Source: a virus. From it: a stretch of DNA of 27,384 bases. The translations under genes were made by a program, and so were the position numbers. The notes beneath the pieces were generated by a model, which was given only the letters and a program-made list of their open reading frames with translations, did no database searches and was not told where the DNA came from. Positions 10,238 to 23,245 of this stretch are shown piece after piece. The stretch's first letter is position 1, and every line of letters begins with the position of its first letter. The stretch spans positions 1 to 27,384 of the IMG/VR virus record IMGVR_UViG_3300037189_002230; one strand, 5' to 3'.

Positions 10238-11488
10238 ATGGCTAAGACCACAAAAGTAATAGTAGCCGGTACACCAATTACAGTTCCAGCTAGTTTCGGA
10301 ATGCAAGACAAGACTCCGCAATCTGCAAAGACCAAAGCCATATTCGCTCCGACCTATACTCCTCCTGCACCTAAAGCTCCTAAAACCAAAAAAGAAATTG
10401 CAGATTTCCAACAAAAATTAAAAGACGCCAAAGACCAAATTAAAACAATCGAAGCACAGGGTCTTGAAACTATTAAAGGTCTTCAAACGGGCGTTGATAA
10501 AGTCTCGCAATCTTTTGGTTCAATTGCTGCTAATATCCAATTTGGTGCTGGCACTGGAGCTGCCTCTGTTGCTAAACAAGCAATGGGTGAAGGTGGCATC
10601 AAGTCAGTTGACGAAGCATTTGCTACAATAAAGTCCATTACGGAAGATCCTGAGTACGTAACACTTGTCAATGTATTTAAGAACTATGGCATGGGTGATA
10701 TTGCCGACTTGTATCTTAAGGTTAAAGCAGATTATCCTAAAGCAGATAAAGATCAAGTAGAAACTCTTCTTAAGACTGATAATAGATACAACAAAGATGC
10801 CAACGGCAACGCAATAGGATACTCTAAGAGATTTGCTGGTAATGTCGAGCTTATGAAAAAGGGCAAAGCCCCATTGGAAGATGCTGAGTATCTAAGAGCT
10901 GAATCTGAGTATGAGAAGTCACTTAAGGCATATGGGCTTAACTCTATGGCTACAAAAGAATCTTATGCAAAATTAATTTCGCAGGAAATCTCAGCTGAAG
11001 AAGCAACTAAAAGACTCCAGTTAGGTTACGACAATCTTAAGTCAAACCAAAAGGTTTTGCAGGCATTCCAAACATTCTACCCGCAACTTTCTCAGGGTGA
11101 TATTGTGGCAGCCATGCTTAACCCAGATGAGCAATTGCCAGCTCTGCAACGTAAAGTTGAGACTGCTCAAATTGGTGGAGCTGCATTACGTCAAGGACTT
11201 GCTACATCACAACAGCGAGCACAAGAACTTCAAGGTCTTGGAGTTACACAAGCTGGAGCTGAAAAGGGATATGCAGCAATTGCTCGCTATCTTCCAACAG
11301 CGCAAAAGCTGTCTGAGATCTCCAAGGAGACAGATAAGTTTACTCAGCTTGCCGCTGAGCAGTCACAAATTGAAGGACTTGCATCGGCAAAGCGTAGAGA
11401 AGAAAAGCTTGCAGCAGAAGAAGAGGCAAGATTCCTTAAGTCTTCCGGTACAACACAAGCTTCGCTCAAGCAGGCGAGGACATACTAG
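10238..11488 (+). CDS. putative internal virion protein, coiled-coil (416 aa)
   Basis: The ATG directly follows the previous TAA, and the SD is weak, so coupling is likely. The protein starts with a short beta-like segment. A Lys-rich coiled coil follows at about residues 47-90 (KKEIADFQQKLKDAKDQIK), then helical sequence. A second strongly charged coiled coil lies near the C-terminus, residues 365-405 (QIEGLASAKRREEKLAAEE). A hydrophobic Ala/Gly helix (FGAGTGAASVAKQAMGEG) lies around residue 105. No family is recognised. It probably acts with the two preceding gene products inside the head or at the portal. The gene ends before a 119-base non-coding spacer. Confidence 0.7.
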   Translation: MAKTTKVIVAGTPITVPASFGMQDKTPQSAKTKAIFAPTYTPPAPKAPKTKKEIADFQQKLKDAKDQIKTIEAQGLETIKGLQTGVDKVSQSFGSIAANIQFGAGTGAASVAKQAMGEGGIKSVDEAFATIKSITEDPEYVTLVNVFKNYGMGDIADLYLKVKADYPKADKDQVETLLKTDNRYNKDANGNAIGYSKRFAGNVELMKKGKAPLEDAEYLRAESEYEKSLKAYGLNSMATKESYAKLISQEISAEEATKRLQLGYDNLKSNQKVLQAFQTFYPQLSQGDIVAAMLNPDEQLPALQRKVETAQIGGAALRQGLATSQQRAQELQGLGVTQAGAEKGYAAIARYLPTAQKLSEISKETDKFTQLAAEQSQIEGLASAKRREEKLAAEEEARFLKSSGTTQASLKQARTY

Positions 11489-11607
11489 AATCCTGACGTG
11501 GACACACCAGCCCCACGCAGCGTATGAGACTGGTAGTAGGAGCCAACCGATTTCCCCGAATCGACTTGAGGCCTACGCTCAAACTAATAGAAGGGTGGAC
11601 AGTTGCT
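11489..11607 (+). promoter_or_regulatory. structured intergenic leader before scaffold gene (candidate cis RNA)
   Basis: This is the longest gap inside the operon. CGTGG at 11497-11501 pairs with CCACG at 11513-11517. Downstream, four nested helices share one axis: TGAG (11525-11528) with CTCA (11578-11581), GTAGG (11536-11540) with CCTAC (11572-11576), CC (11543-11544) with GG (11570-11571), and CGATT (11548-11552) with AATCG (11559-11563) around loop TCCCCG. All pairs are Watson-Crick. No U-run follows, so it is not a simple terminator. No convincing -35/-10 pair is seen. It could set translation of scaffold and capsid, be an RNA-processing site, or hold an unrecognised promoter. Confidence 0.55.
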
Positions 11608-12096
11608 ATGAGCAACAACTACTGGGATGACGAAGACGACGATCTAGATACCGATGTCGTAGAGCAAATCAATGATGGAAGCGACTTACTAAAAAAGTTG
11701 CGGAAAGCAAAGAGAGCAGACGAGAAGCGGATCAAGGAACTTACTGAGCAACTTGAGTCTTTATCCAAGGTGCAGCGTGAGCGAACCGTCAAGGAAGTCC
11801 TAGAAAAGAAAGGTGTTAATCCAAAGGCTACACGGATTATCCTAAAAGATTTGGAAGACATTTCAGAAGATTCAGTTAATACCTGGCTCGAAGATAATGG
11901 CGACCTATTTGGGATTACCGTGACTAAGGACGAAGCGCCAGTAGACCAACAGAATCTTGCCGCTTTGCGTCAACAGGATGTGGTCACACAGGGTGCTTAC
12001 ACACCTGATCGTGCACAAGATTTATCAGCTCAGTTGGACAACTTTGGTTCAGCTGATGACTTGATAGCATTCTTGCGTAATCAAGAAAATTCATAG
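11608..12096 (+). CDS. putative capsid scaffolding protein
   Basis: A scaffold co-assembles with capsid protein in the procapsid and leaves before or during packaging. The 162-residue product begins very acidic (YWDDEDDDLDTD). A Lys/Glu coiled coil follows at about residues 25-60 (LLKKLRKAKRADEKRIKELT). The C-terminus is an Asp/Gln/Leu-rich helix pair (AQLDNFGSADDLIAFLRNQ). Charge pattern, size and position just before the capsid gene are those of scaffolds. The frame is open 28 codons further up, to an ATG at 11524, but that ATG has no SD and lies inside the foldable leader. AAGGGTGG precedes 11608, although with a longer than usual gap. Confidence 0.75.
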   Translation: MSNNYWDDEDDDLDTDVVEQINDGSDLLKKLRKAKRADEKRIKELTEQLESLSKVQRERTVKEVLEKKGVNPKATRIILKDLEDISEDSVNTWLEDNGDLFGITVTKDEAPVDQQNLAALRQQDVVTQGAYTPDRAQDLSAQLDNFGSADDLIAFLRNQENS

Positions 12097-12123: not shown

Positions 12124-13068
12124 ATGGCTTACACAGATACCTCATCTGGTTCCTTAGGTGGAACCGTTGGTGGCGCTGGTTTAGTACAAAAAGCCTATGA
12201 CCGCCTCTTGGAGTTCGCCCTCCGTTCTGAGCCGCTCATTCGTTCCGTAGCAGACAAGCGTCCCGCACGTCAAGCAATGCCTGGGTCTAGCGTAGTTCTT
12301 CAACGCTATGTAGATCTTTCGGCAGCAACAACTGCACTCACTGAGACCACAGATCCAGACGCAGTTGCACTATCAACCCCAACCACAGTTACCATTACTC
12401 TCAACGAGTACGGCAACTCGGTTCTTGTTACCCGTGCTCTTCAACTATTCAGCCTAGCTGATGTTGATCCAGCAATTGCTAACATCATCGCCTTCAACCT
12501 CGCCGATTCGATCGACCAGGTTGCAATGACCACTCTTCGTGGTGGTTCAAATGTTATCTACTCAGGTTCAACCGCAACCTCAACTGCAACTATCACTGCT
12601 GCAGCAACCCTTACTTCGGCTAACGTCCGTAAGGCAGTTGCTAAGCTTCGTGCTAACAAGGCAGTTGCTCGCAAGGGTGCCCTTTACTGGGCAGGTATCC
12701 ACCCAGAAGTTTCACACGATCTTCGTGCTGAGACTGGTGCTGGTGGATGGCGTTTGCCTCACGAGTACAACAGCAACGATGCCATCTGGGCAGGAGAGAT
12801 TGGAACCTACGAAGGTGCATACTTCGTTGAGTCCCCACGTCTCTACACCGCAACTGATGGAGCTTCATCTGCTAAGGTCTACCGCACGATTCTTGCTGGA
12901 CAGCAAGCTCTTGCAGAAGCAGTAGCAGAAGAGCCACATGTCGTTATTGGAAATGTAACTGATCGCTTGATGCGCTTCCGCCCGATGGGCTGGTACGGCG
13001 TACTTGGCTTCGCACGTTATCGTGAAGAAGCATTGTACCGCATCGAGTCCGGTTCTTCAATCGCTTAA
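12124..13068 (+). CDS. major capsid protein (HK97 fold, N4-gp56-like)
   Basis: This protein forms the icosahedral shell. The 314-residue product has a Gly-rich N-terminal arm. Next come an amphipathic helix (AYDRLLEFALRSEPLIR), a beta-rich segment with a TTVTITLNEYGNSVLVT strand (the E-loop or P-domain region), and the A-domain signature IHPEVSHDLRAETG with GEIGTYEGAYFVESPR. That last pattern matches the N4-gp56 family of HK97-fold capsid proteins that I remember. The C-terminus ends in a beta strand (WYGVLGFARYREEALYRIES). It has the strongest SD in the window and follows the scaffold directly. A 12-bp hairpin lies immediately downstream. No protease gene is seen, so maturation cleavage is not evident. 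Confidence 0.93.
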   Translation: MAYTDTSSGSLGGTVGGAGLVQKAYDRLLEFALRSEPLIRSVADKRPARQAMPGSSVVLQRYVDLSAATTALTETTDPDAVALSTPTTVTITLNEYGNSVLVTRALQLFSLADVDPAIANIIAFNLADSIDQVAMTTLRGGSNVIYSGSTATSTATITAAATLTSANVRKAVAKLRANKAVARKGALYWAGIHPEVSHDLRAETGAGGWRLPHEYNSNDAIWAGEIGTYEGAYFVESPRLYTATDGASSAKVYRTILAGQQALAEAVAEEPHVVIGNVTDRLMRFRPMGWYGVLGFARYREEALYRIESGSSIA

Positions 13069-13079
13069 TTGATTGACGG

Positions 13080-13109
13080 TTAGGCAGAGAGTTTCGGCTC
13101 TCTGCTTAA
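13080..13109 (+). terminator. 12-bp hairpin after the capsid gene (partial terminator or mRNA-stabilising stem)
   Basis: A 12-bp stem with one G-U pair encloses the loop TTTCGG; the core arms are GCAGAGAG at 13084-13091 and CTCTCTGC at 13098-13105. It starts 11 bases after the capsid stop. The downstream bases are TTAACAG rather than a U-run, so a stabilising or processing hairpin, or a leaky terminator lowering expression of later genes, fits better than a full Rho-independent terminator. Confidence 0.65.
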
Positions 13110-19765: not shown

Positions 19766-20083
19766 ATGGCTACAGCAACAAAAGTACTGGCTAGAACAGC
19801 AGCATCAACAACTACAACAACTGTGTTATATACAGTTCCCGCATCAACTACTACAGTAGTTTCAAATATTGCTGTAACAAATACGGCAGCATCTGCTGCA
19901 ACATTTACGTTGGGCATGGGTACTGCTGGTGCAAATACAGCACTACATACAACTACTACTATTGCTGCTAACTCAACTGTTTACATTGATTTAAAGCAGG
20001 TATTGATAGCAACTAATACTATTACTGGTGGAGCATCTGCGACAACAGTTAATTTCCATATCTCAGGCGTGGAGGTTTCATAA
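19766..20083 (+). CDS. small beta-sandwich fibre-associated protein, copy 1 (105 aa)
   Basis: The ATG follows AAAGGTAG. The 105-residue product is Thr/Ala/Val-rich, with alternating hydrophobic residues typical of beta strands (TVLYTVPAS, VVSNIAVTNTAA, STVYIDLKQV, TVNFHISGVEVS). It has no Cys and no charge clusters. It is clearly similar to the product at 22020-22349: both begin with a K-V-L start, contain LYTVPAS followed by a strand with S-N/T-I-x-V, and end FxISGVEVS or FSAFGTEIS. It probably forms a fibre tip or a clamp for the adjacent Gly-rich protein. The role is inferred from context. Confidence 0.8.
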   Translation: MATATKVLARTAASTTTTTVLYTVPASTTTVVSNIAVTNTAASAATFTLGMGTAGANTALHTTTTIAANSTVYIDLKQVLIATNTITGGASATTVNFHISGVEVS

Positions 20084-20084
20084 C

Positions 20085-20879
20085 ATGGGTCTATCACAAT
20101 TTCCCGTTGCTGCTGGTTTTGACCAAACTAAATTAACTTTACAACAAACATTAAATTCAAGTAGTAATAACGTATCTATACCATCTGGCGTAAATCTTGT
20201 TTACGCAATTTGTGTTGGTGGTGGCGGTGGCGGAGGTTCAGGAGGTTCTGGCGGTGGCGGTGGTGGCGGAGTCACTCAAGGATGGACTGACGCAAGTACA
20301 GTAGTTGTTGTTGGTGCTGGTGGAACAAAAGGAACAAGCGCTGGCGGTGTTACTAGATATGGTGGCCTTCTTGCAGGTGGTGGAGGTCTTGGTGGTGGAA
20401 CCAACACGGCCACTTTACCAACAACTGGTGGCGCAGGTGGCGGTGGCCAAGCAGGTTCAATTTCTTTTAACGGAGCACTAGGCGCCCCTAATCCAGGAGG
20501 CGCTAATGGAATAAACGGTTATGCTGCTGGAGGTTCAGGGGCTGAAGGTGCTACCGCTGGATATAATGGCGGAAATGGAATTTCTGGCGGTGGAGGCTCT
20601 GGTGGTAATGCTAGTGGCGGAGCCGGTGGAAGTGGTTTAGTTGGAGGCGGTGGAGGCTACGGAGCCAACGGCGGTAATGGTGGCTCTGGAAAAGGCGGCG
20701 CCGGAGGTTCATTTGGCAGTAACTATGGAGGTGGCGGTGGTGGTTATACCGGAGCCGGAAATAGTGCCAGTGCTAATGGCGGAGGCAATGGAGGCGCAGG
20801 TGGAGGCGGTGGAGGTGCTACCTCCGGTGTTCTTGCAAATGGCAATGGCGGTGCTGGAGTAGTTCTATTATATTACTAG
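20085..20879 (+). CDS. polyglycine-rich putative tail adhesin, copy 1 (264 aa)
   Basis: The ATG at 20085 is used because GGAGGT lies upstream; the frame opens earlier but inside the previous gene. Residues 1-45 are a non-repetitive beta segment ending VNLVYAICVGG. Residues 45-255 are Gly-rich (runs of GGGGGGG and GGNGG motifs). The end is AGVVLLYY. Gly-rich blocks of this type in phage adhesins (T4-like gp38) fold as polyglycine-II sandwiches whose surface loops bind receptors; that comparison is by composition only. The copy at 22349-23245 has the same N- and C-terminal caps. Likely a host-range determinant. Confidence 0.85.
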   Translation: MGLSQFPVAAGFDQTKLTLQQTLNSSSNNVSIPSGVNLVYAICVGGGGGGGSGGSGGGGGGGVTQGWTDASTVVVVGAGGTKGTSAGGVTRYGGLLAGGGGLGGGTNTATLPTTGGAGGGGQAGSISFNGALGAPNPGGANGINGYAAGGSGAEGATAGYNGGNGISGGGGSGGNASGGAGGSGLVGGGGGYGANGGNGGSGKGGAGGSFGSNYGGGGGGYTGAGNSASANGGGNGGAGGGGGGATSGVLANGNGGAGVVLLYY

Positions 20880-22019: not shown

Positions 22020-22349
22020 ATGCCAACAATCTACAAAGTGCTGGGACAATCTGCTCCGTCAGCAACAACAGCAACAACTTTATACACAGTGCCAGCAAGC
22101 ACTGATGCTGTGGTATCTACTATTTCAGTATGTAACCGAGCAGCAACAGCGGGTACCTACCGCATAGCAATCCGCCCTGGTGGAGCAACTCTTGCGAACT
22201 CACACTATATTGCTTATGACTCATCCGTAGCAGCAAATAACACTACATTCATTACCGTTGGTGTAACCCTTGATGCTACTGATGTTATTACTATATATGC
22301 ATCATCTGCAGACATGACATTTTCAGCATTCGGAACGGAGATTTCATAA
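22020..22349 (+). CDS. small beta-sandwich fibre-associated protein, copy 2 (109 aa)
   Basis: The ATG lies three bases after the previous stop. It is a paralogue of the product at 19766-20083: both have a KVL start, ATTLYTVPAS, a strand VVSTISVCNRAA (VVSNIAVTNTAA in copy 1), a TFITVGVTLDATD segment, and end in a F-S-A-F-G-T-E-I-S strand. It is less Thr-rich and has one Cys. It probably forms the same small beta fold. Its TAA overlaps the ATG of the Gly-rich gene by one base, so the pair is translationally coupled, which supports a complex of the two products. Confidence 0.82.
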   Translation: MPTIYKVLGQSAPSATTATTLYTVPASTDAVVSTISVCNRAATAGTYRIAIRPGGATLANSHYIAYDSSVAANNTTFITVGVTLDATDVITIYASSADMTFSAFGTEIS

Positions 22350-23245
22350 TGGCCGTTAGCAATCTAGTAACATCTGGCGGATTTGACGAATCACGATTAA
22401 CTTTAAGACATACAGTTAACTCAACTACTAATAGCATTGGTATTGCTAGCGGTGTAAACAGAGTATATGCAATCATTGCTGGTGGAGGAGGCGGAGGCGG
22501 TGCTGGATTAAACGCTGCAGCCGGCGGTGGTGGTGCTGGTGGAATTATGGAAGGTTGGACTGTTGCATCTAATGTTGCAACAATTGGTGCTGGTGGCACT
22601 GGTGGCGCAACAGGTAGTGGTGGAAGCGTAAGTGCTGGTGGAACAACCTCTTATGGGCCATTTTTTGCTGGCGGCGGCGGCGTTGGTTCTTCTGCTACAA
22701 ACATTGTTGCAGGAACTGGAACACTTGGTGGAGCCGGTGGCGGTGGTGGTGGAAATTTGGGAAATAATACAATTACTGGAGCCGCTGGGTCTGCTGGCCA
22801 ATTTCTTGCTACGTCAGCAGTAACTGGTGGGACTGCCGGTTCTGCCAACTTGCCCGGAACAACTGGTAGGGATGGCTACTCTGCTGGAGGTGGAGCAGGT
22901 GGAGGAAATGCTGCCCCAGGTAGTGGTGGCAATGGCGTGTCTGGTGGTGGTGGTGGAGGTGGAGCCTCTGGTGCGGGAGGTGCAGGAGGTTCTGGCTTTG
23001 TAGGTGGTGGTGGAGGTTCTGGTGGAAACACTGGTGGTTCCGGTGGAAACGGAATATTTTTTAATACTGGCAACAAAGTAAACCAAGCCGGAGGTGGTGG
23101 CGCTGGCCTTGCAGGAGCAGGTGGAACCCCAACGGGAAATAGTGGTGCAAATGGTGGAGCCGGTGGCGGTGGTGGTGGTGCAGGTGTGGGCAATACTGGC
23201 GCAGGTGGCGCCGGAGGCGCTGGTTGTGTCCTTATTTATTACTAA
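22349..23245 (+). CDS. polyglycine-rich putative tail adhesin, copy 2 (298 aa)
   Basis: TAATG junction with the preceding gene. The N-terminal cap (GFDESRLTLRHTVNSTTNSI, then GVNRVYAIIAGG) matches that of copy 1 position by position. The middle 240 residues are almost all Gly with Ala, Ser, Asn and Thr; the order of loops (LNAAAGG, FFAGGGGVGSS, TGNKVNQAGG) differs from copy 1. The end AGCVLIYY matches the AGVVLLYY of copy 1. The caps are probably conserved for assembly while the Gly-rich middle presents variable receptor-binding loops. It is longer than copy 1 by 34 residues. Confidence 0.85.
   Translation: MAVSNLVTSGGFDESRLTLRHTVNSTTNSIGIASGVNRVYAIIAGGGGGGGAGLNAAAGGGGAGGIMEGWTVASNVATIGAGGTGGATGSGGSVSAGGTTSYGPFFAGGGGVGSSATNIVAGTGTLGGAGGGGGGNLGNNTITGAAGSAGQFLATSAVTGGTAGSANLPGTTGRDGYSAGGGAGGGNAAPGSGGNGVSGGGGGGGASGAGGAGGSGFVGGGGGSGGNTGGSGGNGIFFNTGNKVNQAGGGGAGLAGAGGTPTGNSGANGGAGGGGGGAGVGNTGAGGAGGAGCVLIYY

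Follow-up and report, generated by a model that had tools for sequence, protein, structure and literature searches.

Genomic Context of the Interval

The window analyzed here, a 27,384-nt stretch of viral DNA (IMG/VR record IMGVR_UViG_3300037189_002230), represents the late region of an actinobacteriophage. Annotation with PHROG yields the gene order terminase, portal, large virion protein, two virion-type genes, the interval under study, scaffold and major capsid protein, with matches along the region, in order, to phrog_38, phrog_104, phrog_8424, phrog_7813 and phrog_1357. The scaffold was identified by its position, by the annotation of its homologues (Table 1) and, at low confidence (mean pLDDT 62.9), by a structure model containing a long helix (residues 15–68).

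The interval 11489–11607 extends from the stop codon of the upstream virion gene (TAG, 11486–11488) to the scaffold start codon (ATG, 11608) and is non-coding, as originally predicted. It contains no promoter-like or terminator-like site, in agreement with the same prediction, which had noted neither a U-run nor a clear promoter. No tRNA, tRNA-like element or tRNA remnant was detected inside it by ARAGORN or Rfam; in the homologues tRNAs occur only upstream of the RNA described below.

Two other features of the window were recorded in passing. A strong hairpin without a clear U-run, GGCAGAGAGTTTCGGCTCTCTGCTT (13083–13107), lies right behind the capsid gene, and the annotation of Streptomyces phage Abafar places a putative terminator at the matching site. 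The tail-fibre region encodes glycine-rich repetitive proteins in two similar units (20028–20879 and 22349–23245); ahead of each lies a small ORF, again similar between the two (19766–20083 and 22020–22349).

Table 1. Elements of the structured RNA and the adjoining genes, in window coordinates.
Feature	Position	Strand	Evidence
Entire structured RNA, running from the conserved C ahead of PA through the scaffold Shine–Dalgarno (SD) sequence	11492–11598	+	Conserved block in 66 freshwater homologues
PA, 5′ arm CTGACGTGG, A11496 bulged	11493–11501	+	PA 99.1% paired; double changes in 7 of 8 pairs
PB, 5′ arm ACCAG, within the PA loop	11506–11510	+	Covariation
PA, 3′ arm CCACGCAG	11513–11520	+	Covariation
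Unpaired conserved linker GUAUGAGA, pattern GUA..AGA	11522–11529	+	GUA and AGA in 99–100 of 100 homologues
PB, 3′ arm CTGGT, pairs with 11506–11510	11530–11534	+	95.8% of cells paired
PC, 5′ arm GTAGG	11536–11540	+	98.6–100% paired
Conserved internal-loop bases AGC, opposite GG 11570–11571	11541–11543	+	Base conservation
Short helix CAA, with TTG 11566–11568	11544–11546	+	99.5% paired; CAG/CTG alternates
PD, 5′ arm CGATT	11548–11552	+	Double changes in all 5 PD pairs
Apical loop TCCCCG, CCC 11554–11556 conserved; candidate anti-SD	11553–11558	+	Conservation and loop/SD covariation
PD, 3′ arm AATCG	11559–11563	+	Covariation
TTG, with CAA 11544–11546	11566–11568	+	Covariation
PC, 3′ arm CCTAC	11572–11576	+	Covariation
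Scaffold SD AAGGGTGG; GGG 11593–11595 candidate partner of the loop CCC	11591–11598	+	Sequence; loop/SD covariation
Inverted repeat GTTGC-TATGA-GCAAC, start codon in loop	11602–11616	+	Conservation in the freshwater lineage
Scaffold gene (regulated gene)	11608–12096	+	phrog_7813; positional homologues annotated as scaffolding protein (Streptomyces phages Dennebes and JPandJE)
Major capsid protein gene, next after scaffold	12124–13068	+	phrog_1357 and PF13252 (N4-like capsid family)

RNA Structure and Covariation

Thermodynamic folding of the plus strand, a test blind to pseudoknots, gave a structure less stable than the mean of shuffled sequences (z = +0.90; 166 of 200 shuffles were at least as stable), and the minus strand was unremarkable (z = −0.55). 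Stability alone therefore gives no support to an RNA structure, and minimum free energy was dropped as evidence for one.

Comparison of homologues reveals a defined architecture. Helix PB has its 5′ arm within the loop of PA and its 3′ arm beyond that loop, and the two helices thereby make up an H-type pseudoknot. They are followed by a long hairpin (11536–11576) composed of PC and then the PD part (CAA/TTG and CGATT/AATCG), closed by the loop TCCCCG. Bases conserved at 97–100% in 100 homologues are G11510 and C11511, GUA 11522–11524, AGAC 11527–11530, AGC 11541–11543, CCC 11554–11556 and GG 11570–11571.

The original prediction had drawn this apical loop correctly and had placed a small hairpin at 11497–11517, which is present but constitutes only part of the longer helix PA. 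It had further described four nested Watson–Crick helices; three of these, PC, CAA/TTG and PD, covary, whereas the outermost one, TGAG/CTCA (11525–11528/11578–11581), is a chance pairing, found in 25.3% of cells, the same as in shuffles, and its 5′ arm coincides with part of the conserved PA–PB linker. The pseudoknot helix PB had been missed. Another candidate, a closing helix between AUCC at the 5′ end and GGGU of the SD, can form in freshwater phages and is unsupported in Streptomyces phages; it forms no part of the final structure.

Compensatory changes, which the prediction had proposed looking for in related phages, were found in all of PA, PB, PC and PD. In a MAFFT alignment of 66 freshwater homologues, unfitted to any structure, 97.6% of pair cells keep their pairing, compared with 84.6% after shuffling and 17–38% when the arms are slid. 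Double changes occur in 272 cells (84 in shuffles) and involve 18 of 26 pairs; both the pairing and the double-change values were reached by none of 500 shuffles. Across more distant lineages MAFFT misregisters PA, for which reason a covariance-model alignment was used there. Among 100 diverse phages aligned in this manner, 84.6% of cells are paired (63.8% shuffled, 27–37% slid) and 515 show double changes (176 shuffled), values biased towards PA, PC and PD, to which the alignment is fitted. PB is absent from the aligning model, and its pairing thus serves as an unbiased check: 95.8% of its cells are paired, against 0.4–38% in slid controls, with 94 double-change cells against 26 in shuffles. 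Taken together, these comparisons of sequences strongly support the presence of a functional structured RNA in the interval.

Distribution of the RNA

Relatives were collected by a capsid-protein search of IMG/VR, which returned many contigs with the same scaffold. In these relatives the stretch from stop to start codon measures 113–128 nt and is clearly alignable, and the protein encoded upstream is often only 25–45% identical among relatives whose RNA can be aligned. DNA similarity between the window and phage ct2KA10 starts exactly where the interval starts. In Streptomyces phages, ~115–118 nt separate the last tRNA of an array from the scaffold gene, and the same fold is built there from other letters. 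Every relative whose sequence reaches far enough upstream has the RNA immediately ahead of its scaffold gene. Carriers comprise contigs of freshwater actinophages, soil actinophages, prophage-like loci of Streptomyces and all of the cultured Beephvirinae (Streptomyces phages) that were examined.

A covariance model of PA, PC and PD (R1), built from 53 sequences with the window among the training rows, matches the window at 11484–11595 (75.1 bits, E = 7e-17). It matched 100 of 100 loci, directly 5′ of the scaffold gene, and 25 of 27 further loci; the other two were a Bacillus phage and a contig beginning too near. In 100 more loci 85 were matched, and all 15 misses start no more than ~560 nt from the capsid gene. 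Exactly one match per genome was obtained in 30 phage records. A sample of 199 Streptomyces genomes yielded a single weak match, ahead of a scaffold-like gene, with a model whose sensitivity in whole bacterial genomes is limited (2 of 4 known carriers were missed). Five Streptomyces genome contigs (L353, L354, L355, L356 and L388), which probably represent prophages, possess a shorter GC-rich version of the RNA ahead of a scaffold-like gene; in several of them the loop reads CCCG and the SD CGGG.

The unmatched Bacillus phage, Pagevirus Pony (L094), is a distant capsid relative for which we do not claim membership. A short pseudoknot-like string, CGAC..TGAG..GTCG..CTCA, precedes the gene in scaffold position there (~545–610 of the locus). 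Five candidates from first-pass regex parsing (L137, L168, L174, L308 and L348) proved to be false, lying in coding DNA.

Loop, Shine–Dalgarno Sequence and Start Codon

The apical loop always contains CCC or CCU, and the scaffold SD GGG or AGG. All SD sequences being G-rich, some complementarity to a C-rich loop is to be expected in any case. The pairing score of each loop with its own SD is nevertheless 5.73, compared with 5.31 ± 0.09 for permuted partners (0 of 5000 permutations reaching the observed value), the permutation removing phylogeny only partly. We also examined the base following the loop CCC and the base preceding the SD GGG in 58 cluster representatives, a set that controls for relatedness only roughly; ten of these were read by eye. 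These two bases form a Watson–Crick pair in 24 representatives, where 13.9 are expected (p = 5e-5), and the covarying types include U-A, A-U, G-C and G-U. In 23 of the 58, the window included, a G-A mismatch occupies this position and only the three CCC/GGG pairs can form. In Streptomyces phages the complementary strings are CCUAG and CUAGG, changed in one of them (L122) to CCUAA and UUAGG.

The start codon itself lies in a second element, a perfect inverted repeat. Throughout the freshwater lineage the GUUGC/GCAAC stem is kept and the loop around the start codon varies in sequence and length (TATGA, AATGA, AAATGA and others). Half of this inverted repeat, namely the bases 5′ of the ATG, is non-coding yet conserved.

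Proposed Function

The comparisons above establish the structure of the RNA, its conservation, its fixed position and the covariation between loop and SD. The best explanation, to which we assign a probability of roughly 55% from sequence comparison, is that the RNA acts in cis as a translational operator of the scaffold gene. The cis-acting nature, already suggested by the original prediction, is supported by the fixed site 5′ of the scaffold SD, the single copy per genome and the covarying complementarity of loop and SD. Of the three functions then suggested for such an RNA, a translational element fits best, with the qualification that sequestration of the SD points to a regulated operator and not to a simple enhancer.

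We propose that the nascent mRNA would fold into the PA/PB pseudoknot with its GUA..AGA linker and then into the PC/PD hairpin, the C-rich loop of which would pair with GGG of the scaffold SD. In the lineage of the window, the start codon would additionally be held in the small hairpin. This folded state would mask the SD and keep scaffold initiation low or slow; masking in the cell, and translation as the regulated step, are what we infer. The output may be set by a trans-acting factor recognizing the pseudoknot core or by ribosome-assisted unfolding. As a guess, extending to both the identity of such a factor and the sign of its effect, the likeliest candidate would be a capsid-assembly protein such as free scaffold, stabilizing the folded form. 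Scaffold bound to its own leader could then exert negative feedback, keeping its synthesis in step with that of coat protein. Nothing was found that points to RNA binding by the scaffold or capsid protein.

The tRNA Junction and Alternative Functions

Soil and Streptomyces phages display a distinctive arrangement upstream of the RNA. Among 52 such loci, 38 have a detected tRNA, which ends 0–3 nt ahead of PA in 36 and lies further away in only 2 of the 38. The flush ends in these 36 loci indicate that tRNA arrays are placed directly against the RNA (for instance, in L284, L113, L097, L151 and L147, around locus positions 2300–2390). The last tRNA before PA varies, with six or more identities, Val, Asn, Met, Pro, Phe and Leu among them. 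Maturation of its 3′ end would presumably leave a transcript starting with the pseudoknot. There is no tRNA ahead of the RNA in the window, in other freshwater phages or in the Streptomyces prophage-like loci, and since freshwater phages keep the RNA without tRNAs, the latter are unnecessary for it. Where a tRNA array adjoins the RNA, the previously suggested processing site is a possible function, although not one that suits freshwater phages, the window included. The closeness of the junction in many homologues suggests a role in RNA processing, whether on top of translational control or instead of it.

This arrangement lends itself to the main alternative to the operator, which we consider clearly less probable and which could coexist with it: the RNA may be a 5′-end boundary or stabilizer. 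Maturation of the tRNA 3′ end, or a cut behind the upstream gene, would create an mRNA beginning at PA, and the pseudoknot would block 5′-to-3′ or 5′-monophosphate-dependent decay by actinobacterial RNase J or E, producing a long-lived scaffold-capsid mRNA. Besides the tRNA ends, the 5′ boundary of the RNA, tight in all lineages, fits such a role. However, the RNA is retained by freshwater phages and Streptomyces prophage-like loci that have no tRNA there, and protection of a 5′ end alone leaves both the covariation between loop and SD and the fixed end at the SD unexplained.

A ligand riboswitch, or a sensor of a host ribosomal protein that times late translation, is rather unlikely. The conserved unpaired core around the pseudoknot (GUA..AGA and AGC/GG) does resemble ligand- or protein-binding pockets, and the SD would be a candidate output. 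On the other hand, no riboswitch or ribosomal-protein leader of Rfam was matched, and the RNA always accompanies one viral gene and never precedes a metabolic gene, the only match among the 199 Streptomyces genomes being weak and in the same context.

We regard as quite improbable a trans-acting or virion-associated RNA (a packaging RNA or a sponge) cut from the mRNA. The RNA is compact, occurs once per genome and adjoins the capsid genes, and the tRNA junction offers a site for 5′ processing, but no 3′ processing or terminator signal precedes the scaffold SD, the conserved region takes in the SD itself, and Rfam registers no resemblance to phi29 pRNA. Still less credence can be given to an element for transcription antitermination or pausing: the position inside a late operon is what it has in its favor, while the RNA is not at a promoter, has no adjoining terminator and is conserved up to the translation start, which leaves the antitermination element of the original prediction without support.

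Finally, an N-terminal extension of the scaffold encoded by the interval in place of any RNA is virtually untenable, for although an ORF from ATG 11524 stays open in the window, 85 of 100 homologues have the scaffold frame interrupted within the RNA by a stop codon, whose distance varies, RNA lengths (113–128 nt) differ by amounts that are not multiples of three, and the helices carry double changes. Because of these stops and lengths, conserved translation as the scaffold N-terminus, named in the original prediction as the observation that would speak against an RNA, was not what the homologues displayed.

Returning to the translational operator, a broader version of it is conceivable and we offer it only tentatively. 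The RNA might constitute a family of double-pseudoknot RNAs specific to phages, in which the leader reads free scaffold or coat protein and adjusts scaffold synthesis accordingly, such feedback setting capsid stoichiometry across actinobacteriophages; in phages that carry tRNAs, maturation of the last one could also form the 5′ end of the sensor.

Comparison with Known Systems

The comparison with Rfam that the original prediction had recommended gave no match to a known family: at the gathering score of Rfam 15, none was found in window positions 11300–11800, in phage FlowerPower or in five further loci. Below the threshold, the window produced only a ylbH match, outside the RNA, and the five further loci only tRNAs. 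This ylbH leader match (11688–11769, inside the scaffold gene; 26.3 bits against a gathering score of 50) is probably due to chance. The order of PA and PB resembles that of P1 and the pseudoknot in the pistol ribozyme; in the loci scanned there was no Rfam match to self-cleaving ribozymes, pistol included. The RNA was likewise undescribed in the mostly open-access literature on scaffold autoregulation and phage structured RNAs that we covered. It is a real, widespread and apparently undescribed structured RNA family of actinophages. Hundreds of actinobacterial viruses keep its shape through matched changes of bases, and it probably controls the amount of scaffold. The family is present in sequenced Streptomyces phages held in laboratories, where the annotation shows a blank.

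Structured RNAs of other phages have been found by similar means. The manA and wcaG RNAs of cyanophages are families discovered by comparison in phage and metagenome DNA (PMC2864571, Weinberg 2010). Those two lie ahead of cyanophage metabolic genes; the actinophage RNA stands in front of a scaffold gene and matched no Rfam family.

It is an old question how tailed phages balance scaffold against coat protein. In phage P22, synthesis of scaffold is said to be adjusted post-transcriptionally to the level of free scaffold, reflecting the same physiological need as the one considered here. P22 differs from the present phage in both phage and capsid family, no pseudoknot leader is known for its scaffolding protein, and no open paper on the autoregulation of that protein was found. 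A conserved leader with an SD-complementary loop makes RNA feedback directly testable, using reporters and existing phages.

The S15 operator has the site of ribosome loading as part of its pseudoknot. In the RNA described here, by contrast, PA/PB is placed further 5′, leaving the hairpin loop as the sole part able to contact the SD; there is also no S15-type Rfam match. The likeness lies in the general plan: E. coli rpsO, encoding S15, is under autogenous control by way of a pseudoknot close to its SD (PMC3014915). An H-type pseudoknot in the leader, backed here by covariation, is a trait shared with operators of the T4 gene 32 and rpsO kind.

The closest working analogue, by comparison of layout, is the pseudoknot of T4 gene 32, possibly the sole viral pseudoknot in translational autoregulation according to a 2010 review (PMC3014915). 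Both are leaders of phage mRNAs in which an H-type pseudoknot lies ahead of the start region, with translational control as the established function in T4 and the proposed one here. Gene 32 encodes an early single-stranded DNA-binding protein that binds cooperatively along unstructured RNA into the start region. The actinophage RNA, in contrast, belongs to a late scaffold gene, has an extra long hairpin with an SD-complementary loop as well as a conserved core, is unrelated in sequence and lineage, and is a candidate operator with a putative protein ligand. It is a strong candidate to join the very few viral pseudoknots known to control translation initiation.
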